From Thermincola sp. (GTDB taxonomy: Bacteria > Bacillota > Thermincolia > Thermincolales > UBA2595), in NCBI GenBank assembly GCA_022735835.1, contig DYZU01000081.1, positions 1-42,125 on the forward strand: DNA of 42,125 nt, given 5' to 3'. Below the pieces are notes generated by a model, which had not been told where the DNA came from, ran no database searches, and worked only from the letters and a program-made list of their open reading frames with translations. Below are positions 1-22,165 of the stretch, piece by piece (position 1 is the first letter of the stretch; every line of letters begins with the position of its first letter). The translations under genes were made by a program, and so were the position numbers.

Positions 1-341
1 ACCGGACGCCCTTCCGGTCTCGGCCCCACCGGACGCCCTTCCGGTCTCGGCCCCACCGGACGCCCTTCCGGTCTCGGCCCCACCGGACGCCCTTCCGGTC
101 TCGGCCCCACCGGACGCCCTTCCGGTCTCGGCCCTACCGGACGGCCTTCCGGCCTCGGCCCCACCGGACGCCCTTCCGGTCTCGGCCCCACCGGACGCCC
201 TTCCGGTCTCGGCCCTACCGGACGGCCTTCCGGCCTCGGCCCCACCGGACGGCCTTCCGGCCTCGGCCCCACCGGACGCCCTTCCGGCCTCGGCCCCACC
301 GGACGCCCTTCCGGCCTCGGCCCCACCGGACGCCCTTCCGG
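1..341 (-). repeat. 27-bp tandem repeat array inside infB
   Basis: Twelve complete 27-bp units lie head to tail from 1 to 324, with a partial thirteenth at 325-341. Read on the minus strand, each encodes GPRPEGRPV. Units differ only at synonymous positions (CGT context GGGCGT or GGCCGT, AGA or AGG, GTG or GTA). Units 4-6 (82-162) and 7-9 (163-243) are identical as 81-bp blocks, showing a recent three-unit duplication. The array has no spacers and stays in frame, so it is a coding minisatellite. It extends left of the window, so total copy number is unknown. Confidence 0.97.
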
Positions 342-617: not shown

Positions 618-935
618 TCAGAAAGCCAATCTTTCCCTTTTAATTAATTGCTGCAGTTTTCTGGCAAAATTCTCCTCAGTGATAACGGCCACCGATCTAG
701 GTGATTTCCCTATGGCGGCGCCCATAGGCATTTTCTCTCCGTACTCTAGCCAAGGTATTTTCTTAAATTTTGCCAGATTAATGAAATGCTCCTTGGTTTT
801 ATGTGACGCATCTGCGGCCACTAAAAGCAGTTTGGCTCTATCATTTTTAATCGCGGCTTCAGCGGCGGCATCCCCTGAACAAACCTGCCCCGCACGCTGG
901 GCAAGTCCCAAAAAATCATAAATTTTTTGGTCCAC
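618..935 (-). CDS. ylxQ: L7Ae/L30e-family RNA-binding protein YlxQ
   Basis: A 105-residue protein of the L7Ae/L30e/S12e/Gadd45 family, whose members bind kink-turn RNA. The family look is clear: an N-terminal helix with FLGLAQRAGQVCSG, a middle strand AKLLLVAADAS, then KEHFINLAKFKKIPW and GAAIGKSPRSVAVI near residues 73-86, which matches the RNA-contacting loop. The start is GTG at 935. The gene overlaps the end of ylxR by 20 nt, which suggests translational coupling. Its exact RNA target is not known from the sequence; the conserved position between nusA/ylxR and infB suggests a role in ribosome or RNP biology. Family assignment is firm, function less so. Confidence 0.9.
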   Translation of the reverse strand: MDQKIYDFLGLAQRAGQVCSGDAAAEAAIKNDRAKLLLVAADASHKTKEHFINLAKFKKIPWLEYGEKMPMGAAIGKSPRSVAVITEENFARKLQQLIKRERLAF

Positions 936-1200
936 TGTGGCTCACCAACCGGTCTCTCAGTTTTTCCAGGATTTCCGGGGGGATAGACTGCTGAAAAGCC
1001 TTTTCCAGTCTTTTTGCTTTTAGCGCTTTATGCAAGCATTCCTCTTGAGGACAGATATATGCCCCCCGGCCTGACCGTTTGCCTCCGGAATCTATCTCAA
1101 TCAAGTTTTCAGGGGTTCTGACTACCCTGATAAGCTCTTTTTTGGGTTTCATTTCCTGGCAGCCCAGGCACATCCGCATCGGGATTTTCTTTATCTTCAT
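916..1200 (-). CDS. ylxR: YlxR/RnpM-family RNA-binding protein
   Basis: A 94-residue YlxR (DUF448) protein. The hallmark motifs are present: PMRMCLGCQEMKPKKELIRVVR near the N-terminus, then SGRGAYICPQEECLHKALKAKRLEKAF. The CxxC and C-x4-C pairs resemble a small metal-binding or structural site. In Bacillus the homologue has been reported to bind and modulate RNase P RNA (RnpM). I chose ATG 1200 because AAGGAG sits 6-9 nt upstream; an upstream TTG at 1206 is too close to it. It lies 15 nt after nusA and overlaps ylxQ, so the three are co-transcribed. Confidence 0.93.
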   Translation of the reverse strand: MKIKKIPMRMCLGCQEMKPKKELIRVVRTPENLIEIDSGGKRSGRGAYICPQEECLHKALKAKRLEKAFQQSIPPEILEKLRDRLVSHSGPKNL

Positions 1201-1215
1201 CTTCAACTCTCCTTA

Positions 1216-2856
1216 TCAGGTTTCATCTTCGAGCTCTTCCAGGTATTCACCTACTTCTTCAACTGACAATTTCTTGCGTCTACCGCCCTTTTTCCCCGCT
1301 TTTTTCCGGGTATCGGCCAACTTTTCTTTCTTTTTGGACTTTTTGCCTTTCTTCGGCATATCATCTTCATCGTCATCGGAATAGAATTCAGGCTCCCGTT
1401 TTAAATCCCCGTAGGTTTCTTCATCACCTTGAAACTGTTCGTCGTCGTAATATTGCTCGTCATAATATTCTTCAGGATAATACTCGTCGTCATCATAATA
1501 CTGCTCATTATAATTCTCCTCGTACTCCGCTTCTTCCCCGGGCCGGCCTTCCCCGCTATATTCTTCGTCCTCCGGGACGTATTCTTCCTCATAGTCGTAG
1601 TCCTGGTATTCTTCTTCGTATTCTCCCCAATCTTCATAATCGCCCTGTTCGCTTTCATCATATTCGTCCTGGTAATACTCTTCTCCCGCGTACTCTTCTT
1701 CCACGTATTCGCCTTCGGCGTATTCTTCTTCCGGATACTCGTTTTCCATATACTCATCTTCCAGGTATTCGTCTTCCAGGTATTCACCCACCTGATCAAA
1801 ATATTCTTCATTTTCCATAATCTCTTCCATCTGGGATTCGCTCTTGATATCTATTTTCCAGCCGGTCAGTTTAGCGGCCAGCCGGGCATTTTGCCCCTCT
1901 TTTCCGATGGCCAGTGATAATTGATAGTCAGGTACAACAACCCTAGCCACCTTATCATCCTCAAAAATGGCGACATCCACTACCTTGGCAGGGCTTAAGG
2001 CGTTGGCCACAAACTTTGCCGGGTCCTGGTTCCATTTAACGATATCAATTTTTTCACCTTTCAGCTCATTGACAATGGTCTGAACTCTCATCCCTTTAGG
2101 CCCCACGCAGGCACCTACCGGGTCAACGTTTTCATCCCGTGAGTAAACGGCAATTTTCGAACGTGCTCCGGCCTCGCGGGCCACGGATTTCAGTTCTACG
2201 ATCCCGTCGTGAATTTCAGGCACTTCCAGCTCGAAAAGCCTCTTCAAAAGGCCGGGGTGGGTTCTGGAAACCAGGATCTGCGGACCTTTGGTGGTCTTTT
2301 TAACCTCAACTATGTATGTTTTCAGCCTGTCACCGTGTTTATATTCTTCACCGGGAATTTGTTCAGTCGGTCCGAGAATTGCCTCTGTCTTACCCAAGTC
2401 TATGTAAATATTTTTTTGGTCTTGCCGCTGGACAATTCCGGTAACAATATCACCTTCACGGTTGGAAAACTCTTCGTAAATTATACCTCTTTCAGCTTCC
2501 CTGATTCTCTGTACAACCACCTGTTTGGCTGTCTGGGCCGCAATGCGGCCGAAATCCCTTGGAGTAACTTCTATTTCTACTATGTCACCCAATTCATACC
2601 TGGGGTCTTTTTCCCGGGCTTCTTCCAGAGATATTTCGCTTCTTTCGTCTTCCACTTTTTCAACAACGGTTTTTCTGGCGTAAACCTTTATCTCCCCGGT
2701 CGACCTGTCAATGTTAACCCTTACATTCTGCAGCGAACCGAAGTTTCTCTTGTAGGCTGAAATCAAGGCAGCTTCAAGGGCTTCCAGGAGTATCTCCATG
2801 GAGATGCCTTTTTCCCGTTCGAGTTCCTCCAAGGCTTCGATGAACTCAGTATTCAT
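1216..2856 (-). CDS. nusA: Transcription elongation/termination factor NusA with long acidic-Tyr C-terminal tail
   Basis: A 546-residue protein; typical Firmicutes NusA ends near residue 350-370. Residues 1-345 are a normal NusA: N-terminal RNA polymerase-binding domain ([18 protein letters not shown]), S1 domain ([21 protein letters not shown]) and two KH domains ([12 protein letters not shown] and [19 protein letters not shown]). From about 350 to 499 the chain is almost all Glu, Asp and Tyr, with about 30 tyrosines, beginning as a five-residue periodic run. Residues 500-530 are Lys/Arg-rich, and the last 16 are acidic again. ATG 2856 is preceded by AGGAGG about 12 nt upstream; the TTG at 2877 lies at that site. 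The tail is in frame and uninterrupted, so it is not a frameshift artefact. Confidence 0.97.
1660..1788 (-). repeat. Degenerate 15-bp repeats encoding the YxExE run of NusA
   Basis: On the minus strand this stretch encodes successive five-residue units of the form Y-x-E-x-E ([35 protein letters not shown]). The DNA units are 15 bp and diverged at several positions, so the array is older than the infB array 1.3 kb away. Downstream to about 1360 the acidic-Tyr composition continues without strict periodicity. Confidence 0.85.
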
Positions 2857-21528: not shown

Positions 21529-22165
21529 TCGCTTCCTCACCTTTGCGCTTTAACTGCAGCATCAGTCTGACTTCACCCTTACCTATTTTCATTTGTTGGG
21601 CAATCTCCTCTTCGGAATACCCTAACTTATCCATGGCATAGACCATCTGGTGTTTGGGCGGAATTTCTTTAAATGAATAGCTTTGGTCAGTTGCAGTATT
21701 GTGGTCCTTACCGTATTGCTCTTTCTGCCGGGTTACCTGCCGGGGAAAGATAATCGTCTTGTTAACTGGACCGGTCTGCTTTTGAGCGCTTTTTTTATAC
21801 CTCTGATGTTCCTCCAAATTATCATCTTCCGGACTTGTTACATTACCCTCCGGACCGGCGCCGGGGACATTACCGGCGCCGGTGGCATTATCGGCCCCGG
21901 AAACATTGTTCACAGTCTGCCGGCTAAGTTGGTTTTCCAACAGTTTAGCTTCTTTAATAGTGGCAGATATTTCGTCCACAACTTTCTGGGAAACAATTTC
22001 CAACTGCTCCAGCAGGGAACCGACTTCTTTCTTAGCCTCCAACAACTCTTTCCGCACATGCTTAAGTTCCTGCAGCTCTTTCTGCTGCCAGCGAGACTGA
22101 ATTCTGCCCAGCCATATAGCCATTCCCACAAAAATTAGCCCGGTAAACACTAATACCCTAACCAA
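21521..22165 (-). CDS. SwrB-like/DUF6115 protein
   Basis: A 214-residue protein: an N-terminal membrane anchor (about 3-20), a long coiled-coil (about 25-80, QKELQELKHVRKELLEAKKEV), a low-complexity Gly/Ala/Asn linker (about 85-115), then a conserved C-terminal helix-turn-helix-like segment (MVYAMDKLGYSEEEIAQQMKIGKGEVRLML, about 176-205). This layout and the position between sigD and rpsB match Bacillus SwrB, which promotes flagellar export gate assembly. I therefore call it SwrB-like on structure and synteny, not on close sequence identity. It overlaps the MltG-like gene by 8 nt. Confidence 0.7.
   Translation of the reverse strand: MVRVLVFTGLIFVGMAIWLGRIQSRWQQKELQELKHVRKELLEAKKEVGSLLEQLEIVSQKVVDEISATIKEAKLLENQLSRQTVNNVSGADNATGAGNVPGAGPEGNVTSPEDDNLEEHQRYKKSAQKQTGPVNKTIIFPRQVTRQKEQYGKDHNTATDQSYSFKEIPPKHQMVYAMDKLGYSEEEIAQQMKIGKGEVRLMLQLKRKGEEANV

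Follow-up and report, generated by a model that had tools for sequence, protein, structure and literature searches.

Why should infB, the gene for initiation factor IF2, carry a long and nearly perfect peptide repeat, and what keeps this repeat uniform? We addressed these questions in a Thermincola genome, starting from contig DYZU01000081.1, which is 42,125 nucleotides long and is referred to as the window throughout; the genome (G000) is 75% complete and comprises 218 contigs, the window being C51. The N-terminal part of IF2 is encoded at positions 1 to 584 of the window, on the minus strand (194 codons up to the contig end), as judged from its open reading frame and from the Pfam domain IF2_N at residues 1-48. 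Positions 1 to 341 of the same strand are occupied by a tandem array, for which Tandem Repeats Finder reported a period of 27 bp, 12.6 copies and 96% matches. The peptide read from it, inside infB, is GPRPEGRPV, and a degenerate pattern of this peptide gave 12 matches on the minus strand against none in 100 shuffles. Since the edge copy at 1-26 lacks one base, the last of its Val codon, at the contig end, the array comprises 11 complete units, not 12, together with this unit short by one base and a degenerate first unit, EGQPEGRPV. With in-frame tandem units whose length is a multiple of 3 bp, it has the unit structure of a coding minisatellite. A sequence-only reading of the window had described an IF-2 linker of 12 full units plus a partial, which is correct to within one base, and had given the composition of the unit (two Arg, three Pro, net charge +1) accurately. 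Its picture of a basic, extended and disordered linker agrees with a single-sequence AlphaFold2 model, in which the array is predicted to lack secondary structure.

The remainder of infB was found on contig C161 of the same genome. C161 opens with the same array, continued by five further units that are all in frame and free of stops, the last of them reading GPRPEGRPG, and proceeds through a short GERKP repeat, a second IF2_N domain and the GTPase to the remainder of IF2. Taken over both contig parts, Pfam detects the IF2_N, translational GTPase and IF-2 C-terminal domains of a bacterial IF2, and TIGR00487 is matched on C161 with an E-value of 5e-271, which bears out the identity of the linker. 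The ends of C51 and C161 share an exact overlap of at most 35 bp, and the match of the C161 start to the window array runs for just 53 bp, so the two stretches represent different parts of one array. Joined on the strength of this shared array, they give at least about 16 units, a lower bound as the assembly is broken at the array. The second small array, right after the main one (L003, 144-194), has a 15-bp period, GERKP-like units and 3.5 copies. The gene infB is followed on C161 by genes which we take, by eye, to be rbfA, nrnA, truB, ribF and pnp.

Close relatives possess such a linker as well. All ten genomes of the window's class carry an Arg/Pro-rich linker ahead of the IF2 core, and nine of them contain clear arrays. 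The consensus unit, GPRPEGRPV in the window genome, reads GPRPEGRPM and -Q in G001 and G003, a mixed GPRPDGRPG in G002 and GARPEGRPQ in G004-G006; G008 has a 14-mer, G009 has QRPAG, and only a degenerate end is seen in G007. Within the class, matches to the unit pattern all lie on contigs bearing infB or one of its halves. The gene is broken at the repeat in eight of the ten class assemblies. The halves of IF2 end in the array on separate contigs in seven class genomes, the C-half of G007 starts at a contig edge (its N-half was not found), G002 has an N-gap, and G008 is the only class genome with a whole infB. As infB is often broken at the repeat in draft assemblies, its length is underestimated in databases. 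Units beyond the window with frameshifts or stops, or close relatives lacking the linker, would have refuted the sequence-only reading; neither turned up. The reading of the array as an IF2 linker stood, but it had missed the continuation on C161, the class-wide occurrence and a NusA tail of opposite charge.

This tail belongs to nusA (1216..2856, minus strand; Pfam NusA_N, S1 and KH_5; TIGR01953), which lies in the same operon as infB, about 1 kb from the array. Between them are genes for a YlxR protein (919..1206, minus strand; Pfam YlxR) and an L7Ae-family ribosomal protein (618..935, minus strand; Pfam Ribosomal_L7Ae). We placed the nusA start by eye at ATG 2856, after AGGAGG; the open reading frame list gives TTG at 2877. 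Past its last KH domain, NusA ends in an acidic, tyrosine-rich C-terminal tail of 209 residues (1219..1845, minus strand), with 31 Tyr, 87 Asp/Glu and 21 Lys/Arg, that is, net 66 acidic. Three overlapping short arrays at 1448-1785, within the tail, were flagged independently by the tandem-repeat scan. An acidic Tyr-rich tail is present in all nine class members examined (G007 was outside the sample), and that of G008 shows about two dozen AEGDY-like units. After the acidic tail come a basic patch and a conserved, helix-like NusA end (window 1219-1360), observed in eight of the nine class members examined, G009 being without it. Domains of the AR1/AR2 type are expected to be detectable by a Pfam model; no Pfam domain was found past residue 359 of the 553 in the window NusA, which bears a low-complexity Tyr/Asp/Glu tail in place of folded acidic repeat domains. 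A single-sequence AlphaFold2 model of NusA was too poor for use (mean pLDDT 39.7).

In E. coli, Domain I of IF2 binds the C-terminal region of NusA (Metelev and Johansson 2025, PMC12297416). Its authors describe neither end as conserved in sequence, leave the generality of the link open and raise condensates of both proteins as a possibility. Our case involves the same two proteins from the same operon, and the window IF2 has the N1 domain (Pfam IF2_N) of the E. coli-type complex. E. coli NusA, as presented there, has the acidic repeat domains AR1 and AR2, whereas the window NusA has a low-complexity tail, and its contact with IF2 is one that we infer. A second likeness concerns composition. 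At 5 uM, an Arg-rich FUS fragment demixes together with an anionic peptide rich in Tyr (Xu et al. 2026, PMC13339138); Tyr-to-Ala substitution abolishes demixing, Tyr-to-Phe strongly weakens it and charge alone is insufficient. The IF2 linker and the NusA tail share this make-up, with 46 Arg in the linker halves and an anionic partner of 31 Tyr and 66 net acidic residues. That pair is designed, human-derived and studied in vitro, whereas ours is a putative pair of two bacterial proteins of one operon.

Our tentative reading, to which we give somewhat less than an even chance, is that the IF2 linker and the NusA tail form a multivalent contact that holds IF2 near RNA polymerase. It draws on co-occurrence: over evolution the two chains are often found in the same genomes, a pattern suggesting that they may bind one another and help to couple transcription to translation. 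In this view, the array is the disordered linker of IF2, a string of Arg/Pro/Gly nonapeptides, about 16 or more, that joins N1 to the N2/GTPase portion. Unequal copying, always by entire 27-bp units, would keep it long and uniform, and selection would maintain its Arg/Pro/Gly make-up. Its likeliest role would be that of a cationic multivalent Arg chain in contact with the acidic Tyr-rich C-terminal tail of NusA, encoded in the same operon, and this contact would hold IF2 near the NusA-carrying RNA polymerase. The linker may also bind RNA. The sequences themselves show the architecture, its presence throughout the class, the constraint on the peptide and the joint occurrence of the two tails; transcription-translation coupling and any condensate, like the physical contact, are what we infer from them.

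We compared IF2 linkers and NusA tails beyond the class. The region upstream of the IF2 GTPase was taken from 114 further genomes of the phylum and from 80 named loci. Of 203 loci, 183 were usable, NusA being absent from the available DNA at the other 20, and 180 remained after removal of duplicates (L035, from the same genome as G008, and rows with identical GTPase domains); G236, whose contig ends inside the operon, had been excluded beforehand. Raw rank correlations were weak and unspecific (Arg~Tyr 0.29 and Arg~Phe 0.30 in the phylum draw; Arg~Tyr 0.19, p = 0.14, in the named set). In independent contrasts on a NusA + IF2 tree, controlling both lengths and GC, linker Arg and tail Tyr correlated at 0.33, and again at 0.33 when the class was dropped; the phylum draw gave 0.37 and the named set 0.31. 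For the whole set, the values were -0.04 for Lys~Tyr and -0.02 for Arg~Phe. Removal of the five largest contrasts left an r of 0.11-0.19 for Arg~Tyr, and sign concordance outside the class (63/110) was not significant.

A prediction was then fixed before the loci of 25 fresh genomes with long NusA and 15 controls, chosen among the entries listed, were retrieved; 39 of these 40 loci were used, L316 ending before the GTPase. As coded, the fresh test failed (Arg~Tyr rho 0.22, p = 0.30, n = 24). Three Tyr-rich fresh genomes appeared almost without linker by the original parser, one due to an N-gap in the array (L325) and two due to a difference in frame (L313, L326). In the latter two, both single-contig genomes, the frame of the IF2 array differs from that of the GTPase, whether by an assembly error or by a genuine frame change. 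When every locus was parsed again with tolerance for such frame differences, the fresh set gave Arg~Tyr rho 0.64 (p = 0.0007), tandem score~Tyr 0.70, Arg~Phe 0.25, and Lys~Tyr 0.50 that turned into -0.12 after control for tree and length; as this parser was adopted after the result had been seen, the pass counts for less than a clean confirmation.

In the combined set of 218 genomes, obtained after one more duplicate was removed, IF2-linker Arg and NusA-tail Tyr are associated with a partial r of 0.31 (p = 0.0002), 0.30 without the class and 0.47 in the fresh set. The corresponding values are -0.01 for Arg~Phe, 0.05 for Arg~Asp/Glu and -0.07 for Lys~Tyr. When the five largest contrasts are left out, r for Arg~Tyr falls to 0.18-0.20; the signal leans on few lineages. 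Arg going with Tyr, and neither Arg with Phe or acid nor Lys with Tyr, is the same preference as that of the demixing pair of PMC13339138. Other candidate measures were rejected. As a measure of IF2 in the combined set, tandem score performed less well than Arg (partial 0.17, or 0.14 with the class left out). Acidic charge or tail length by itself found no support once length and tree were controlled. A register in which Tyr and Arg would be equally spaced was tested on the 26 genomes having 8 or more Tyr in the tail, and the spacings did not match (rho -0.08).

The two tails also co-occur as such. Outside the class, 17 genomes have NusA tails with at least 8 Tyr, and 15 of them possess an IF2 array (score of at least 20), versus 21 of the 192 others. 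With the class included, the 26 genomes that reach this Tyr count fall into eight tree groups, of which six have arrays of score at least 20 (the class, an 11-genome clade, L206, L319, L067 and L064) and two, L110 and L209, do not. Six of eight groups against the 21/192 background corresponds to a binomial p of 3.9e-5, bearing in mind that we chose the thresholds and matched groups to scores ourselves and that L064, L067 and L110 may be one family; a two-state simulation on the tree gave p = 0.0005 in both directions. In our literature search, with thin coverage of subscription journals, no title or abstract opening among those listed reported repeat arrays in IF2 or an IF2-matched NusA tail. 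Older work is said to have dealt with an unusually long, repetitive IF2 in a myxobacterium.

Might the Arg-rich linker instead act alone, as an RNA- or ribosome-binding, condensate-forming disordered region like that of E. coli and Caulobacter IF2, the NusA tail being unrelated? IF2 undergoes phase separation with RNA by way of its N-terminal disordered region (Ghosh et al. 2025, PMC11838494); that study describes the region as varied in sequence, with a median of 320 residues over 39,197 IF2 proteins, and a disordered, sequence-varied N-terminal region is what our linker has in common with it. Moreover, 19 genomes outside the class combine an array of score at least 20 with fewer than 5 tail Tyr. 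The independent arrays RPQGARSDN of a Syntrophomonadaceae MAG (L063) and RPFNREGQN of a Clostridiales MAG (L057), elsewhere in Bacillota, differ from that of the window genome in that no Tyr-rich tail accompanies them on NusA (0 and 1 Tyr). The tree neighbours L286 and L217 have IF2 arrays scoring 92 and 64, yet their NusA tails are 12 residues long and devoid of Tyr; they are a counter-example to any strict pairing of the two tails. We nevertheless consider a linker acting alone unlikely, as neither the Arg~Tyr association nor its absence for Lys, Phe and acid counts would be expected from it. The work on phase separation concerns RNA and cold, and a word search of its text returned neither NusA nor arginine, tyrosine or repeats.

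The array could also be a neutral coding minisatellite, slippage acting in a linker that tolerates anything in frame and recent copying accounting for the perfect peptide. The 12 units in the window differ from one another at three columns (AGA/AGG, GGG/GGC, GTG/GTA), all synonymously; 24 of the 81 possible single changes per unit are synonymous, the chance of three independent changes all being so is 0.026, and by themselves these changes are weak evidence for selection on the peptide. The earlier statement that only synonymous changes survive applies to the window units and breaks down at the deviating last unit on C161. Within G000, units have a mean pairwise identity of 0.955; the distinct changes among them are 3 synonymous ones and a single non-synonymous one. 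Such near-uniform units indicate that copying is recent, the 27-bp unit keeps the frame, and non-synonymous variants are plentiful in the arrays of other genomes (G005: 24 synonymous, 18 not), all in line with neutrality. Consensus units of different species tell against it. Their synonymous and non-synonymous differences number 7 and 1 for G000-G001, 3 and 0 for G001-G003, 5 and 0 for G004-G005 and, more weakly, 6 and 4 for G002-G004, though only about 7-8 of the 27 sites per unit are synonymous and 19-20 are not. This predominance of synonymous differences in most pairs implies constraint on the peptide, and the presence of Arg/Pro-rich linkers in all ten class members likewise speaks against neutrality, which is already disfavoured and which we hold to be improbable. 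Recent copying within each genome and constraint on the peptide both appear to apply, so that of the proposal "selection or very recent homogenisation" both halves survive and the either/or does not; the comparison of synonymous with non-synonymous changes that accompanied it came out as 3 to 1 in G000 and as mostly synonymous between species, G002-G004 being the weak case.

Certain lineages might simply permit low-complexity growth in disordered tails, those of IF2 and NusA expanding together without touching. Before length control, tandem score does follow tail length (contrasts r 0.30), and origins are few. In the order of G057, which took the place of a planned within-family test, 19 of its 21 genomes were used, and linker Arg and tail Tyr correlate at rho 0.81 (0.77 once G057 is dropped). 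In this set, however, a single genus supplies about half of the members, linker length tracks Tyr just as well as Arg does (both rho 0.81) and the linker of G332 was set to zero by an in-frame stop. In that genome (G332:C117, L388), one TGA interrupts the IF2 open frame. Shared tolerance is nonetheless very improbable in our opinion, since after length control only Arg with Tyr remains and strong arrays in the 42-kb window are confined to infB and the NusA tail, apart from two short arrays. We find it hardly credible that an internal start in each unit yields a series of truncated IF2 forms, for although the unit has an SD-like GGAAGGG upstream of GTG, with ATG at the same place in G001 and G003, and IF2 isoforms are known in several bacteria (PMC12297416), that place is occupied by Gln in G004-G006 and by GTA in two window units.

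We retain the multivalent contact between IF2 linker and NusA tail as the preferred reading. At both of these ends sequence is lost and chemistry is matched, in residues known to attract each other. The paired change at two unconserved ends makes the generality of the E. coli IF2-NusA link, as set out in PMC12297416, testable. A bolder version seems to us rather doubtful. In it, several Bacillota lineages would have separately evolved a dedicated, co-condensing two-chain tether, composed of an Arg/Pro/Gly repeat in IF2 and an acidic Tyr repeat in NusA, which would bring translation initiation to RNA polymerase and whose strength would depend on the number of repeats, adjusted by in-frame slippage.

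Elsewhere in the window, an 18-bp repeat is present in three copies at 21854-21907, inside a DUF6115 gene whose neighbours are the flagellar and chemotaxis genes FapA, FlhA-type FHIPEP, CheA, CheW and CheD.
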